A DNA stretch of 22,594 nucleotides from a virus: the IMG/VR virus record IMGVR_UViG_3300030060_001342, positions 1 through 22,594 of that record. One strand, 5' to 3'. A program made the translations under genes and the position numbers. The notes under the pieces were generated by a model. It was not told the DNA's origin and did no database searches. It saw nothing but the letters and a program-made list of their open reading frames with translations. Below are positions 3 to 9,502 of this stretch, one piece after another; within the stretch, counting starts at the first letter, position 1; every line of letters begins with the position of its first letter.

Positions 3-1109
3 GTAGCTGTAGATGGTTATGAAGGAAGTCCACCAGCATTTAATATAATTGAGGTGGAAGGTAGGGAGTATGCTGAGTTTATGGGTGGATCAAATAAACT
101 AGATTATGAAGATGATGGCAGTTTAGATTATGGCATAGGTGTAAGTTTTACTAGGATTGACTCTTTTAATTCATCAAACTGGAATCAGTTAGCAGGTTGG
201 TGGAGCGAAGGCAATGTTAAAACTATAGTAGATAGCGAAGGTATAAGAGTGTTTCCATTAACATTTGGCACAGACACAGACCCATACCCTACAGAGTTAG
301 TCAATAACTGGTTTTTTGGAATGTCAAGAAATATTTATTTAGGATGGGCAAGATTATATGGACAAAACATGCTTTCATTTGGTGGTGGTGGTTTTGTAAA
401 AAGTGGTGATATTTTAAAAGATCTAACAACTAGTGATGGCGATAAACAGGATTTTGAATATTATGTTAAATTAGAAATGGGCAGTGCAGAGTGTGGTGTA
501 TTAACTTATGAAGGTGATAGAAGTTTGCCTGTATGGTGGGTGCAACATACTAAAGGTGCAGAACAATTTTGGAATGTGAAAGCTGATGCACTTGAGCAGT
601 ATGGTGATGGACAAAACACAAGTTCTATACCACAAGGGCAAGAAATGGTAGTTACAACAGGCTTTAAGGTTGCAGACTTTTCAGGTGTTAAAAACTTAGA
701 AAGCAATAATCAATTTGTGCTTGGCGACAGGTATTGGGATGAACAAACAGAAACTTTTAAATTAGATACCACTATAGGTGGGGAAGCAGCATACTTTGAT
801 TTTAGAAACATGAAATGGGTAAGGAGAGCAGTAGTTAAAGACTTCCAAGACCAAGAATTATTTGCACAAGTAGAAGGCAGGGTGGATAATATAAATTTAA
901 GGTATACAAGCACTCAGGACATTTTAAATACAGAACAAATGAGGGCATATGACAATATAGGCCAGAGGCAACAAGTAAATGTAGTTGCAACACAAAGTAT
1001 GGCTCAACCTAAAAGAAGGCCTGTAAAACAGCAAAAAACAGCTATTAAGGGTAAAACCAAAACTAAAGCTAAACCAAAAACAAAAATACCAAAAGGAAAA
1101 GGCTATTAA
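3..1109 (+). CDS. Tail-module structural protein, 5' truncated by the window edge
   Basis: The reading frame is open from the first full codon at position 3, so the real start lies outside the window; the GTG at 54 is only an internal codon. About 368 residues are visible. The body is rich in Gly, Trp, Tyr and Asp, as in beta-rich virion proteins, with no catalytic motif I recognise. The last ~35 residues are a Lys/Pro/Thr-rich basic tail rich in TKAKPK-type repeats, perhaps a DNA- or partner-binding extension. The stop overlaps the next start (TAATG), so it is translationally coupled to the large hub-like gene. A tail role is inferred from this neighbour only. I do not recognise the family. 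Confidence 0.7.
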   Translation, partial: VAVDGYEGSPPAFNIIEVEGREYAEFMGGSNKLDYEDDGSLDYGIGVSFTRIDSFNSSNWNQLAGWWSEGNVKTIVDSEGIRVFPLTFGTDTDPYPTELVNNWFFGMSRNIYLGWARLYGQNMLSFGGGGFVKSGDILKDLTTSDGDKQDFEYYVKLEMGSAECGVLTYEGDRSLPVWWVQHTKGAEQFWNVKADALEQYGDGQNTSSIPQGQEMVVTTGFKVADFSGVKNLESNNQFVLGDRYWDEQTETFKLDTTIGGEAAYFDFRNMKWVRRAVVKDFQDQELFAQVEGRVDNINLRYTSTQDILNTEQMRAYDNIGQRQQVNVVATQSMAQPKRRPVKQQKTAIKGKTKTKAKPKTKIPKGKGY

Positions 1110-3889
1110 TGGCTAATTATAATAGACAAAATAGGCCTAATGTATCTAATGCATGGTGTTATTTATGTGATCACAACTTTCCATATGGGCCTGTAAATTA
1201 TTTTGACCCTAGATATGATGTTTATATTAGTTATTCATTTAAAGAAGGGCAAAGGCCACAATCAATAGAAGATAATCAAGCAATGTTAGCACTTTTAGAT
1301 GACAGTCAGTCTACAGTAGGTACAAGCAGTTCACTTATAATTACACCAGCACACATTATGTATGGCACAGGAGCCACTAATTGCAATACTGATAATGGAA
1401 GTGATGATTGGGGTAAATTAACAGAGGAAGACTATGGCCCTAACAATGATATTAATGGTGATGGCAATTTTGGTGGACAAGCAGACTTTGGACACATTGT
1501 AAATTCTAGTACAGATTATTTAGAAATAGAAACAGGAGCAGGTTTTGGAGCCAATAACTTTTTATCAAATTTTGGGTTGCCATATTTCATGTCTTTCACA
1601 AATGCATCACAACAAGGTGTTGGCAATATTATTACACCACAAAATGAAATATATATACCTCCTGCATGGGTTGTAGATGTAATATTGGATAGTGATGACC
1701 AGTGGGTAAAATCTATAATAGTAAGAATACCAAATGCACACTGGGCAAATTTATTTAGAGAAGAAGGTGCCTATGGAAATTTAATGTTATCAGCTTACAT
1801 TGGACAAGGGCCAGTTGATACAGATTTAGGAACTGTAGATGTTAATTATTTAATAGATAAAATTACAGGTAGAATGGGGTATGGCAATTCAGAATACCCA
1901 GCTAATATCCCATTTGGTGTACCTTCTGCCTATGAAATACCTTATGATACTTTAGTTGGGCAAAGAGTTTCTTTAGGGTTTAAAATGAGATTTGGCAAGT
2001 TTGATGACCAAGCACAAGAATTAGCTGATTACAACCATTACTACACTGCATTAGTAGATCCAAGTGCAGATCCTGAAAATATAGCATTAAAAAATAATAT
2101 TTTATTTGGAACAGGCTCAATTCCTAATTATCAGGTAACTATGGGCAGTTTTGAATTACCTAGAGAGGTACCAATAAATGAAAATGTAATAGGTAGTTTC
2201 AATTTAAACTTTCAGGATTTCGAAGGTGTTGCAAGAGTACTTGTAGTGGACAATCAGCATGTAGACTCTGAAGGTATTATTAATCAGCTAGATAATGACA
2301 TGAGGTCAATATATGATCAGTTAGAGGTAATAGGTTTTAATTACATAGATGACGCTGCCAACTATGGTATTGTTGAATTTGATTATGAAACTGACAGCTT
2401 AGGTGTCAGGTTTGATGTGCATCCTGTGGATTTATTTCACACATTCTATTTTACATACACAGGTGTTGCTAGTGGTGCAGATTCATTTTCAGTATATGTG
2501 CAATTAATAAGTTCAAATCATGGTAATGATAGTTGGAATGATTATTTCAATGAAATACCACCTGCATTTAAATGGTTTAGAGTGCATAACACTAACATAG
2601 ATGTAGTTGCTGAAAGTGATGAAGATGATGACAGTGATATGGTAATAGACCCTAGTGAAGATGATTTTGACATAGTAGATGATGATGAGGTAATAATACC
2701 ACCTGAAACAGAAGATGATTATGAGCCAGACCCAAACCAAACTCTTATATTAAATCCTGTCGATATATGTTTCCATTTTTTAGAACAGGAATTAAAATAT
2801 GCAGATGGCATAGATGCAGAAGCAATTATAGAGGCTAGGGATAACCATTTAAATTGGAGATTTGATTTTGTAATAAATGAAAGAGATACAGGCAAGAACC
2901 ACATTCAGGATTTAGTTTCAAATATGAAGTCGTCACCAACATTTAATAACAATAAACTATCATGGTTTAATATAAAAACAACTTACACTGGTGATGAGCC
3001 CAAAATAACTATTACATCAAAAGATATTATTAGTTATGAATATAGCAGAACAGATGCAAGTGATGTAAAGACAAGCATTGAAGTTAAGTATAACTATGAC
3101 ATTGGATTAGATTCTTATTTATCTACAACAGGTGATTTAAAAGTTAATGATGCAGGTGGTGGTATATTTGAAGGTGTTTACCATATTACAAGACCTTATG
3201 CAGATATGCCCAATTATGACATGGTAAACCCTGAGGATAAAATAAATTATTATGGTGTAAAAACTGAAAATGGCTCAAAGATAATACATGAAGATACACA
3301 TGAAATTATTGAAACTAAATACATTACAGATCCTTACACAGCATCAGAGTTTGCAAAGTTTCAATTAACCAGCAGATGTAATGTTCACAATAAAATTACC
3401 TTAACATTACCTTTAAAATATTATTATTTAGAAGTTGGTGATTTAGTTGATTTTGATGCTATGATAAAGGGTAGAAAGTTATTTGGTGAAAAATATGTAC
3501 TTGATAAACCTGATGAAATGCCTATTAGATGTGGACAATTTATACTACCATTATTTATAATTACAGATGTTAAAAAAACTTTAAAAAATGTAACTATTGA
3601 ATTATATCAGTTGCATCACTTAGATTATGAAACTGCACCTGTTTACAATGGTTTTGAATATCAATTAATTACCCCTACAGGGTTTCTTCCTGATGTTCCT
3701 GATTTTCCAGATCTTACACCAGCAGGTACTGGTGATTTAAATGGTGATGGGTCGATAGATGTGTTAGATGTTGTATTGGTAATGAATTTAATACTTGATG
3801 GTGAATACAATGAGGCAGGTGACTTAAATGGCGATGGCCAATTAGATGTGCTAGATATAGTTATGATTGTAAATGTTATAATAGGATAA
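1109..3889 (+). CDS. Large tail hub/tip-like protein with C-terminal type I dockerin
   Basis: This is a 926-residue protein in three parts. Residues 1 to about 500 are a beta-rich region of unknown family with one isolated DINGDGN calcium-type loop near residue 115. Residues ~501-542 are an Asp/Glu linker. Residues ~543-865 resemble the hub domain of siphophage tail-tip proteins (lambda J-like logic): a cluster reading LTLPLKYYYLEVGDLVDFD follows TASEFAKFQLTSRCNVHNK, as in hub domains that bind the tail tube. Residues 875-926 are a complete dockerin: two copies of GDLNGDG followed by xxDVLD, with D1, N3, D5, D9 and D12 all present in both, each followed by a hydrophobic helix. It starts at the TAATG overlap with the upstream gene. 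The hub assignment is inference; the dockerin is read directly. Its likely job is adhesion or assembly of extra tail-tip parts. Confidence 0.8.
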   Translation: MANYNRQNRPNVSNAWCYLCDHNFPYGPVNYFDPRYDVYISYSFKEGQRPQSIEDNQAMLALLDDSQSTVGTSSSLIITPAHIMYGTGATNCNTDNGSDDWGKLTEEDYGPNNDINGDGNFGGQADFGHIVNSSTDYLEIETGAGFGANNFLSNFGLPYFMSFTNASQQGVGNIITPQNEIYIPPAWVVDVILDSDDQWVKSIIVRIPNAHWANLFREEGAYGNLMLSAYIGQGPVDTDLGTVDVNYLIDKITGRMGYGNSEYPANIPFGVPSAYEIPYDTLVGQRVSLGFKMRFGKFDDQAQELADYNHYYTALVDPSADPENIALKNNILFGTGSIPNYQVTMGSFELPREVPINENVIGSFNLNFQDFEGVARVLVVDNQHVDSEGIINQLDNDMRSIYDQLEVIGFNYIDDAANYGIVEFDYETDSLGVRFDVHPVDLFHTFYFTYTGVASGADSFSVYVQLISSNHGNDSWNDYFNEIPPAFKWFRVHNTNIDVVAESDEDDDSDMVIDPSEDDFDIVDDDEVIIPPETEDDYEPDPNQTLILNPVDICFHFLEQELKYADGIDAEAIIEARDNHLNWRFDFVINERDTGKNHIQDLVSNMKSSPTFNNNKLSWFNIKTTYTGDEPKITITSKDIISYEYSRTDASDVKTSIEVKYNYDIGLDSYLSTTGDLKVNDAGGGIFEGVYHITRPYADMPNYDMVNPEDKINYYGVKTENGSKIIHEDTHEIIETKYITDPYTASEFAKFQLTSRCNVHNKITLTLPLKYYYLEVGDLVDFDAMIKGRKLFGEKYVLDKPDEMPIRCGQFILPLFIITDVKKTLKNVTIELYQLHHLDYETAPVYNGFEYQLITPTGFLPDVPDFPDLTPAGTGDLNGDGSIDVLDVVLVMNLILDGEYNEAGDLNGDGQLDVLDIVMIVNVIIG

Positions 3890-3890
3890 T

Positions 3891-4352
3891 ATGTATAGAA
3901 CTGAAAAAATAAATGCAAAATACACTGATAAAATAGACAGCAAGAACAGGCCTATAGCAACTGAAGCTAAAATTGAGTATGGTGATGGAGAGGTGTTTTT
4001 AAAAACTAATGGCGAAATAGCAGCCATAGATATAAAATATGAAGGTGCCTTTAAAGGTGTAAATACATTAGGTGACGGCTGGTTATACAAATGCAACAAT
4101 AACAGAATTATTATAGCTAGTTTAGCACAGGCACCATTCAAAGAAAGGATCTTTAATTATATTGGTAATATTAAAATTAAAAATGCAGAGTTTGCGACAT
4201 GGGATGGTAAAAAATTTAGGGTACAAATACAATCAAAAGAACAAACAACTTGGGCAAATAGTTATGCAACTTGGAACAGCGATACAAGAAAACCTGAGGA
4301 AGTTTTTAAAGACAAAACAATACACAAAGAAATAACTAAAAGCAGAATTTAG
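3891..4352 (+). CDS. Small unknown protein of the tail module
   Basis: A 153-residue protein starting one base after the dockerin gene stops, with a modest Shine-Dalgarno (AGGAT) in the end of that gene. It is mixed in charge, with a Lys-rich C-terminus and no membrane segment or signal peptide. A Trp/Thr/Ala-rich stretch near residues 120-130 (TTWANSYATWNS) is the only distinctive piece. I do not recognise the family. Its position between the hub-like gene and the conserved tail-region gene, in the same direction and without a gap, argues for a virion or tail-assembly role, but that is inference. Confidence 0.65.
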   Translation: MYRTEKINAKYTDKIDSKNRPIATEAKIEYGDGEVFLKTNGEIAAIDIKYEGAFKGVNTLGDGWLYKCNNNRIIIASLAQAPFKERIFNYIGNIKIKNAEFATWDGKKFRVQIQSKEQTTWANSYATWNSDTRKPEEVFKDKTIHKEITKSRI

Positions 4353-4359
4353 GAGAATT

Positions 4360-5511
4360 ATGGCGAGAAGAAAAATAGGCAAACCAAGATTTTATGCTGA
4401 TTTACCCTCATATTTGAAAGTAAAAGGCTATTTCACAGGCACTAATATAGACAATGTAGTCGACTTAACACTAAACCCCACTGAAGAAAATAGCGAAAAA
4501 TTATGGCAATTTGACCCTAGTCTTACAAAAACATTTAAACTGGATGCATCTGAAAGTAGTGCAAGTTTTGATTTTCACTTTGATAAAAAAGATAATTTAG
4601 ATGTATTTAATAAACAACTGCATGAATTAATAACAAATCCTGCAACATATTCAAATAAAACAGGATTGTATGGTGGTGTGCTTGGTCATACATTTTGCAG
4701 TAAAGAAGCACAAGATGAATTCCAAAATTTATTAACATACCATATAGCAATATTAGGTAATCCAACTAATGATGTACAAGACCAACAAACAGAGGATGCA
4801 ATAGCATTTGCTGATGAAATAAGCAACATACAAAACTTTACAACACAAACACCAACTTACAATGGTTATTCTTTGTGGAATATTAATGGCATAAGGTTAT
4901 CATCATTTGATGAAGGTACACAGGCCACTGGTATAGCCTTAAAAGTTTATACAGCAACTAATGCAACATTTGACACAGACACATCTATAGATATAGGTGC
5001 AATTACTTATGGAAGATGGTTTGAGCCTGAACATGCATTTGAATTGAAAGCCTCAGTTAAAAATGACTATGAGGGTTTTAAAACTAAAAATACTATAGGT
5101 GGCAATACATTAATTAATATAGATCATTTAGGTGTACCAAACTGGGGTAACTTACCTGCATGGACTCTAGAAAAGCAAATTGGCCATGACTATAACATAG
5201 GTGGTCATACAGGCAGAAGAACTTGGAGTGTGGGTTTAAACTTTATGTCAGATGATGAGCTATTGAGTGACCCAAATAACAGTAACCAGTTTTTTATTTA
5301 TGACGAAGATGCTAACTCATACAAATTTGATGATAGCATGAGTTCTTTTTTTGGTTTGACAATGGGTGGCAGGATTCCTTTTCTCTTTTGTCCTGATACT
5401 GATGCAGACAATAAAGAATTTGCAAAATGCATTATCACAAAACCTCCTACCTACAAACAGGTCGCTAATAACCTGTTTTCAACTAACTTCACAATAGCTG
5501 AAGTTTTTTAG
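4360..5511 (+). CDS. Conserved phage tail-region structural protein
   Basis: A 383-residue protein with a clear Shine-Dalgarno (AGGAG, 4352-4356) before ATG 4360. Its C-terminal third has a pattern I recall from a protein widespread in uncultured marine phage contigs: GRRTWSVGLNFMSDDELL, then SSFFGLTMGGRIPFLFCPD, then a final QVANNLFSTNFTIAEVF. In that family the gene sits with tail genes; its exact role (distal tail, baseplate or tube-associated) is not known to me. It has no signal peptide or membrane segment. It is the last gene of its transcript: a strong terminator follows 34 bases after the stop. A virion structural role is likely; the specific role is open. Confidence 0.7.
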   Translation: MARRKIGKPRFYADLPSYLKVKGYFTGTNIDNVVDLTLNPTEENSEKLWQFDPSLTKTFKLDASESSASFDFHFDKKDNLDVFNKQLHELITNPATYSNKTGLYGGVLGHTFCSKEAQDEFQNLLTYHIAILGNPTNDVQDQQTEDAIAFADEISNIQNFTTQTPTYNGYSLWNINGIRLSSFDEGTQATGIALKVYTATNATFDTDTSIDIGAITYGRWFEPEHAFELKASVKNDYEGFKTKNTIGGNTLINIDHLGVPNWGNLPAWTLEKQIGHDYNIGGHTGRRTWSVGLNFMSDDELLSDPNNSNQFFIYDEDANSYKFDDSMSSFFGLTMGGRIPFLFCPDTDADNKEFAKCIITKPPTYKQVANNLFSTNFTIAEVF

Positions 5512-7719: not shown

Positions 7720-7904
7720 ATTGTAATATTTGCGATTCTGAAATAGAGTCAAATAATGGTGATGTAGTAGGTTATTTTGGTATAACTGAAGTTAGTTTTT
7801 GTATTTGGTGTTATAGTTCTATAACTGATATGGTTATACAAATACAAGGCTTTGACAATATAGATATATTAAAAGAAAAAATAAAAGAGTTAGAAAATGA
7901 GTAA
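7716..7904 (+). CDS. Small zinc-ribbon protein
   Basis: A 62-residue protein overlapping both neighbours by a few bases (ATGA with the nuclease, 8 bases with the PLP-like gene), so it is translated as part of the same string. Cys3 and Cys6 (CNIC) and Cys29 and Cys32 (CIWC) form a four-cysteine zinc knuckle pair; the remaining C-terminus is a short charged helix (ILKEKIKELENE). Proteins of this shape bind nucleic acid or act as small subunits. No specific family is recognised. Confidence 0.6.
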   Translation: MNCNICDSEIESNNGDVVGYFGITEVSFCIWCYSSITDMVIQIQGFDNIDILKEKIKELENE

Positions 7905-8595
7905 AATATTAATTGAAAAATACAATGATGTTCATGTCCTGAGAGATGATATTTTGGCTGGTGGCACTAAATCTGTGCTAATGCCACACATTATTAAAGA
8001 TATGCAAGAGTATGTATATTGCAGTCCAGTGTATGGAGGTTTTCAAATAGCTTTAGCTGATTACTGTAGAAAATACCAAAAAAAGGCAACAATATTTTGT
8101 GCTGCAAGAAAAAACAAACACAGAAACACTTTAGAATGCATTGCACTAGGTGCTAATGTAATTGAGGTGCCATATGGCTACATGAGTGTTTTAGAAAGCA
8201 GAGCAAGGCAATATTGTAGCGAAAACAATGCAAAGAAAATAGTGTTTGGTGCAAACTCTGAAGAAAACATTAATATTTTATCTAAAAGGGTTACAAAGGT
8301 AATAGAAACATTAGGTGGTGAGCCTCAGGAGATTTGGTGTGCTATTGGCAGTGGTACACTTGCTAAAAGTATATTGAGGGCCACAAGCAGCAGTATTGTT
8401 AATGGTGTGCAGGTGGGTAAGGTGTATACAGAAACACATAAAAGGTTAAATGTTTATAAATACCCAAAAGGGTTTGATAAGGTTTCCAGTTATGTATCAC
8501 CCTTTCCATCTATGCCAAATTATGATTTAAAAGCATATGAGTTTTGTGTTAAATATAAACAAGGTGAAAATGTTCTATTTTGGAATGTTTTATAA
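7897..8595 (+). CDS. Short PLP fold-type II-like enzyme
   Basis: A 232-residue protein whose pattern follows the tryptophan-synthase-beta / ACC-deaminase superfamily. LRDDILAGGTK (residues 15-25) mirrors the RDD...GGNK segment that carries the Schiff-base lysine, making Lys25 the candidate. YCSPVYGGFQIALADYCRKY then KKATIF mirrors the substrate loop and helix. CIALGANVIEVP (81-92) matches the usual ALGAxV strand. IWCAIGSGTLAKSIL (146-160) mirrors the glycine loop that holds the PLP phosphate. It is about 100 residues shorter than typical members (~330) and diverges after residue 180. It lies directly upstream of the DNA methyltransferase, a pairing I believe recurs in phages, so a role in DNA modification is plausible but unproven. 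Confidence 0.6.
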   Translation: MSKILIEKYNDVHVLRDDILAGGTKSVLMPHIIKDMQEYVYCSPVYGGFQIALADYCRKYQKKATIFCAARKNKHRNTLECIALGANVIEVPYGYMSVLESRARQYCSENNAKKIVFGANSEENINILSKRVTKVIETLGGEPQEIWCAIGSGTLAKSILRATSSSIVNGVQVGKVYTETHKRLNVYKYPKGFDKVSSYVSPFPSMPNYDLKAYEFCVKYKQGENVLFWNVL

Positions 8596-8605
8596 GGAGA
8601 TTAAA

Positions 8606-9502
8606 ATGACAAATGTAGACTTATTTGGTAATGAGGTAGTGGAAAAAGGTAGTTTAAAAGATAGTTATATAGTACCACCATTTTCTATTTTGGACACAGT
8701 ACAGGGCGACTGGTTTAACAGGAAGCGAAAATGGACAACACTTGGCATACAAAGTGAATTAGGCAGAGATGCTGAGTGTGTACCAAGCAGATTTGGCAAC
8801 AGTGATGAAGAATATTTTAAAAAGTATGGCAGAAAACCTATGAGTGGTACATCAATATTTGACCCTGTGCTTTGTGAGATTATGTATAGCTGGTTTGTAA
8901 AAGAGGGTGGCAGCATTTTAGATCCCTTTGCTGGTGGCAGTGTAAGGGGTATTGTGGCTAATTATTTAGGTTATAACTATACAGGTGTTGAATTAAGGCA
9001 AGAACAGGTAGATGCAAACATGCAGCAAGGTATTGATATATTAAACCTTGAAAGTCCTGAGTGGATATGTGGCGACAGCAATCAAGTTTTAGATAAAATG
9101 GATAGGCAGTTTGATTTTGTGTTTAGTTGCCCTCCCTACTATGATTTAGAGGTGTACTGTGATGACCCTAATGATTTGAGCAATATGTCTTATAATGAGT
9201 TTAATGAGGTTTATGAGTCAATTATATATAAATCTTGTAAGTTATTAAGAAACAATAGCTTTGCCTGTTTTGTTGTGGGTAATTGTAGGGATAAAAATGG
9301 TTATTTAATGGATCTTGTAGGCAATACTATTAGAGCATTTGAAAAATCAGGACTAAGATTTTACAATGACATAGTTTTAAAAAATGCTTATGGCACTGCG
9401 ATGCTTAGAGCGTCAAATACAATGACATATAAAAAAGTTGTTAAAGTGCATCAAAATGTGTTAGTTTTTTGTAAAGGTAATCCTAAAAGTTTTATAGGTT
9501 AA
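8606..9502 (+). CDS. DNA amino-methyltransferase (N6-adenine or N4-cytosine)
   Basis: A 298-residue protein started at ATG 8606 behind AAGGAG (8594-8599); the longer frame from 8537 adds 23 residues lying inside the previous gene and is unlikely. SAM-binding motif I is ILDPFAGGSVRG (DPFAGGS at 106-112) with Glu129 in YTGVEL as the probable ribose ligand. The catalytic motif IV is FSCPPYYDLEVY (CPPY at 175-178). The motif order I then IV, and blocks such as GTSIFDPVLCEIMYSWF and HQNVLVFCKG, match a methyltransferase type common in phages and sometimes fused to ParB-like domains. No restriction partner is present. It probably protects phage DNA from host nucleases or prepares bases for further modification. 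The target base cannot be read off. Confidence 0.85.
   Translation: MTNVDLFGNEVVEKGSLKDSYIVPPFSILDTVQGDWFNRKRKWTTLGIQSELGRDAECVPSRFGNSDEEYFKKYGRKPMSGTSIFDPVLCEIMYSWFVKEGGSILDPFAGGSVRGIVANYLGYNYTGVELRQEQVDANMQQGIDILNLESPEWICGDSNQVLDKMDRQFDFVFSCPPYYDLEVYCDDPNDLSNMSYNEFNEVYESIIYKSCKLLRNNSFACFVVGNCRDKNGYLMDLVGNTIRAFEKSGLRFYNDIVLKNAYGTAMLRASNTMTYKKVVKVHQNVLVFCKGNPKSFIG

Follow-up and report, generated by a model that had tools for sequence, protein, structure and literature searches.

A type I dockerin in a phage tail module and an adjoining protein of predicted cohesin-like fold: a candidate tail-tip joint

Few known non-covalent protein joints are as strong as that of cohesin and dockerin, which is also a standard tool of biotechnology. 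The window analysed here, the first 22,594 nucleotides of the viral record IMGVR_UViG_3300030060_001342, encodes a tail hub-like protein of 926 residues that was predicted from its sequence to end in a complete type I dockerin, which raises the question of what such a domain would hold on to at the tip of a phage tail. The original prediction offered two functions, a plug for a tail component at the tip or a grip on a cohesin displayed by the host; of these, the tail-component plug is the best supported by the analysis that follows.

The complete record is 30,583 bases long and its ends share a direct terminal repeat of 106 nucleotides (105 of 106 identical; positions 1–106 of the window and the end of the record). 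The shared repeat, together with a tail gene that continues from one end of the record into the other, indicates a probably complete genome. The tape-measure protein (phrog_3779, E-value 6.5e-10) is encoded two genes upstream of the 926-residue protein, which is followed directly by two further genes, here ORF2 and ORF3 (table 1). No match covering the body of the 926-residue protein was found in family libraries or among PDB sequences; the label ‘tail hub-like’ reflects its synteny with the tape-measure gene. Further along the window, positions 7897–8595 encode a threonine dehydratase-type pyridoxal-phosphate enzyme (phrog_7093, E-value 2e-34), a metabolic gene that is unusual for a 30 kb phage, adjoined by a DNA methyltransferase gene at 8537–9502. 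At the right edge of the window, a short stretch of bases is undetermined and is translated as XXXX (L002:2588-2600; approximately 22,590–22,600 of the record).

Table 1. Features of the tail module, in window coordinates.
Feature	Position	Strand	Basis
Gene between tape measure and hub, C-terminal part	54–1109	+	gene spans record ends (106-nt terminal repeat)
Tail hub-like protein, 926 aa, dockerin at C-terminus	1109–3889	+	intact ORF; tape-measure gene two genes upstream; relatives with 23–35% identity across the hub
Type I dockerin, two calcium-loop repeats	3731–3886	+	PF00404, 30.3 bits (cut-off 22.9)
Repeat 1 calcium loop, DLNGDGSIDVLD	3734–3769	+	sequence reading; per-position conservation
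Repeat 2 calcium loop, DLNGDGQLDVLD	3821–3856	+	sequence reading; per-position conservation
ORF2, 153 aa, predicted cohesin fold, putative dockerin partner	3891–4352	+	AlphaFold2, Foldseek, VIA; fusions in L044/G001 and L063
ORF2 β-sandwich (cohesin-like) core, residues 24–120	3960–4250	+	pLDDT; VIA model_range 24..123
ORF3, 383-aa putative tail protein	4360–5511	+	L166 homologue with second dockerin mid-protein

The final 52 residues of the hub-like protein read GDLNGDGSIDVLDVVLVMNLILDGEYNEAGDLNGDGQLDVLDIVMIVNVIIG, followed by the stop codon. Reading of the two 12-residue loops confirmed that both are intact, each with D1, N3, D5, D9 and D12 as originally described. With the whole protein as query, the Pfam model Dockerin_1 (PF00404) matched residues 875–922 with an E-value of 4.8e-07 and a score of 30.3 bits, above its cut-off of 22.9, and the dockerin segment alone scored 36.4 bits. 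Generic EF-hand models all fell below their own cut-offs on the 926-residue protein, leaving Dockerin_1 as the only one to pass, so that the profile search bears out both the complete type I dockerin and its distinction from a generic EF-hand. When a profile built from the dockerins of this phage family was compared with solved structures, the best matches were the cellulosomal dockerins 2ccl_B (E-value 8e-09) and 1ohz_B (4e-08), with calmodulin-like EF-hands behind them. Judged by its sequence, the domain is an ordinary member of PF00404. A fold comparison was computed on the model of a relative, L063, whose dockerin superposes on that of C. cellulolyticum (2vn5_B) with a Z-score of 10.1 and an rmsd of 1.2 over 56 of 56 residues; helices follow the calcium loops at residues 68–80 and 97–110 of that model. 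The dockerin of the window itself is identified from its sequence.

Searching viral contigs with the whole 926-residue protein gave no match, and relatives were instead reached through the terminase, TerL, which led to 17 related viral loci. All five TerL relatives with a homologue of the hub have a dockerin match in the hub gene, four of them above the Pfam cut-off. Larger scans were then seeded on ORF2, on the C-terminal domain of the hub using patterns outside the dockerin, and on ORF2 proteins from deep branches, and the resulting loci were analysed with profiles of the hub, the dockerin and ORF2. Every one of the 71 IMG/VR loci that cover the hub domain and ORF2 carries a dockerin in the tail module; at 95% ORF2 identity, the 71 loci fall into 35 clusters, and since many contigs were recovered by several scans, 35 is the count to use. 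Loci that lack hub, dockerin or ORF2 stop at a contig edge, and deep-branch relatives fetched later again contained both the dockerin and ORF2. One candidate member, L108, was rejected as unrelated. Among INPHARED phages, ORF2 was absent and no close dockerin was found, and bacterial genomes yielded no relatives of ORF2. An unannotated human faecal phage record (MT836518.1:226-441) matched the dockerin end of the hub weakly, with 34.7% identity and an E-value of 1e-3.

The segment is thus retained in relatives, and its presence in 35 of 35 lineages shows that it is not there by chance. This distribution also bears on the view that the segment is a generic calcium-binding EF-hand pair with no docking function. 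EF-hand models do match it, below threshold, and a few lineages depart from the complete domain: the first repeat is degenerate in L054, L056 and L058, and the hubs of L095 and L098–L101 have a single repeat followed by an acidic stretch. Against this stand the passage of the cut-off by Dockerin_1 alone, the fit of the L063 model to a solved dockerin at 1.2 Å and the retention of the domain across all lineages, and we consider a generic EF-hand pair highly improbable.

Conservation within the loops sets the phage dockerins apart from their counterparts in clostridial cellulosomes. In all 31 representatives, both repeats have V or I at position 10, and position 11 is L in 26–27 of the 31. In C. 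thermocellum, the recognition code of the dockerin is Ser11/Thr12 and Ser45/Thr46 (PMC5772552), residues that we equate with loop positions 10–11 by our own reading of the loops; the phage dockerins thus have [VI]-L where the clostridial ones have Ser-Thr. The constancy of this pair at the counterpart of the recognition code counts in favour of a docking function.

The partner of the dockerin had been expected elsewhere, as no cohesin-like gene was evident in the window. By sequence this still holds: the cohesin model PF00963 has no match in ORF2, in the whole 30.6 kb genome or in its relatives, so a search of the full genome with that model did not produce the partner. ORF2 had no significant match in Pfam, NCBIfam or PDB sequences either, and hhalign of ORF2 against 23 clostridial cohesins, run alongside reversed-alignment controls, gave no significant result (probability under 1%). 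By structure, the statement does not hold. An AlphaFold2 model of ORF2, built from 21 sequences, has a confident β-sandwich core at approximately residues 21–120 (block pLDDT 74–90, mostly 85–90). Compared with the PDB by Foldseek, the model has cohesins at ranks 1–9, the best being 2vo8 (E-value 2.1e-4, probability 1.00), and VIA places cohesins at ranks 1–8 with Z-scores of 9.0–9.7 over 94–102 residues. In L063, where hub, dockerin and ORF2 form one polypeptide, a single-chain model has a pLDDT of approximately 90–95 over most of the dockerin and ORF2 domains, and Foldseek with the ORF2 part yields cohesins at ranks 1–11 (best E-value 1.9e-3). Models of two different family members therefore agree on a cohesin-like fold, and ORF2 is predicted to fold as a cohesin-type β-sandwich. 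Since the sequence tests fail despite this prediction, we do not file ORF2 as a member of PF00963. Nine unnamed viral proteins in BFVD have the ORF2 fold (E-values up to 4e-9), one of them 100% identical to ORF2, so some sequences of the family are already public, though unnamed.

Other β-sandwiches of the same class are close enough that the fold by itself is no proof of dockerin binding. For ORF2, VIA also returns the N-domain of GH20 (Z-score 9.0) and chitin- and cellulose-binding domains, spanning Z-scores of 7.5–9.0. These matches, together with the absence of detectable sequence homology to cohesins, would fit a carbohydrate-binding or other β-sandwich (CBM2, chitobiase N-domain) acting as a glycan-binding tail adhesin, in which case the dockerin would be a calcium-stabilized C-terminal cap or would bind something else. 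However, cohesins are a tiny part of the 350,542 chains searched, and they fill the top Foldseek ranks for both models; the neighbour of ORF2, moreover, is a dockerin. We regard a glycan binder as quite unlikely.

The arrangement of the genes links the two domains more directly. In most lineages, the dockerin forms the C-terminus of the hub and lies between a few bases and approximately 170 bases before the ORF2 domain. In two lineages, L044/G001 and L063, a single reading frame spans hub, dockerin and ORF2, giving a fused polypeptide. L060 and L062, in which the hub stops early, were considered as counter-examples with ORF2 but no dockerin; this was rejected, as the dockerin (33.0 bits) lies near the N-terminus of the same hub. 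In L105, the hub has no dockerin, and a separate gene for a 187-residue protein between hub and ORF2, immediately preceding ORF2 (L105:3493-4053), carries one at its C-terminus. L166 has two: one in the hub and a complete one in the middle of the ORF3 homologue (L166:4311-5627), so that two dockerins flank one cohesin-like gene in a single genome. The dockerin relocates, yet its loss from the tail module was never seen in the 35 lineages.

In nearly every lineage, ORF2 comes immediately after the gene that carries the dockerin. The dockerin was found alongside it even though it formed no part of the search seeds, which were ORF2 or the hub minus its dockerin. Hub and ORF2 never occurred separately and are always co-inherited, which makes the co-occurrence of the dockerin a fact about one clade rather than an independent argument for binding. 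For the pairing of dockerin and ORF2, fusions and relocations weigh more than co-occurrence. Co-variation supplies the chief evidence against this pairing: dockerin distances correlate with those of hub and ORF2 at r = 0.34–0.37, against 0.86 for equally short subsets of hub and ORF2, and beyond the hub the partial correlation between dockerin and ORF2 distances is 0.13, a value equalled or exceeded in 134 of 2000 permutations. This poor correlation may reflect saturation of a short, constrained motif, exchange of the dockerin as a cassette, or binding to something else than ORF2, for example a cohesin of the host.

The last possibility corresponds to an explanation in which the dockerin was acquired from dockerin-rich bacteria as a receptor-binding module and attaches to a cohesin displayed on the surface of the host, ORF2 being an unrelated structural protein or cap. 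The dockerin does not keep pace with hub and ORF2 in its evolution, as might be true of a module fitted to a changing target, and its location in a tail-tip protein, terminal or nearly so, with occasional relocation or duplication, is also compatible. It does not account well for a protein of predicted cohesin fold encoded directly beside the dockerin and, in two lineages, forming one polypeptide with it. Because the adjoining gene has this predicted fold and is fused to the hub and dockerin in two relatives, a phage partner is likelier than a host one, and we hold the host-surface grip to be rather unlikely.

We consider it probable that the phage tail module supplies genes for the two halves of a dockerin–cohesin-like joint, with the dockerin docking ORF2 to the hub. 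After translation, the dockerin of the hub would bind calcium and fold, and its helix surface would dock ORF2 as in cellulosomes. ORF2 would thereby be held at the tail tip of the virion in a calcium-dependent manner, as an adaptor or adhesin. In L044/G001 and L063, gene fusion makes the connection between hub and ORF2 covalent.

This proposed pair resembles the clostridial type I cohesin–dockerin pairs (2vn5, 1ohz, 6kgc-f) in having a dockerin with a duplicated calcium loop as the terminal domain of the client protein, its repeats near two-fold symmetric, and a candidate partner of predicted cohesin-type β-sandwich fold. It differs in scale and content. Unlike clostridial cellulosomes, the phage genome usually has one dockerin and one cohesin-like domain, located in the tail module, and the 30.6 kb genome studied here combines its single dockerin and lack of a PF00963 match with the absence of a scaffoldin and of enzymes. 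The cohesin-like core is also shorter, at approximately 97 residues compared with approximately 140 in clostridial cohesins, and has no detectable sequence similarity to them. Cohesin folds outside cellulosomes have precedents in the glycoside hydrolases of C. perfringens (2vo8, 2jh2, 2w1n) and in Archaeoglobus (2xdh), which count among the top structural matches to ORF2; these non-cellulosomal cohesins and dockerins are cellular proteins, unlike the phage tail-module pair. ORF2 is reminiscent of the siphophage tail-tip adaptors that connect the hub to receptor-binding proteins: its gene follows those of tape measure and hub, and its probable role is to join tail-tip parts. To our knowledge, the adaptors described so far join via other folds, rather than a dockerin–cohesin joint. 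We found no dockerin or cohesin described in a phage tail or virion in the open-access full-text literature, and no virus described there as using a cohesin–dockerin joint; a region of an E. coli phage protein has been reported as structurally similar to PDB 2wz8, termed a cellulosome dockerin carbohydrate-binding module (PMC5967307).

The case is directly testable, as both proteins are small, and the at least 35 diverse candidate dockerin–ORF2 pairs constitute a natural set for engineering. More tentatively, these phages could possess a self-sufficient viral joint for building the tail tip, in which the dockerin is a mobile cassette that has passed from one tail protein to another, possibly enabling the exchange of tail-tip parts among related phages or competition with the cohesin–dockerin systems of the host. 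A phage family that encodes both halves of the joint side by side would represent a new mode of tail-tip assembly.
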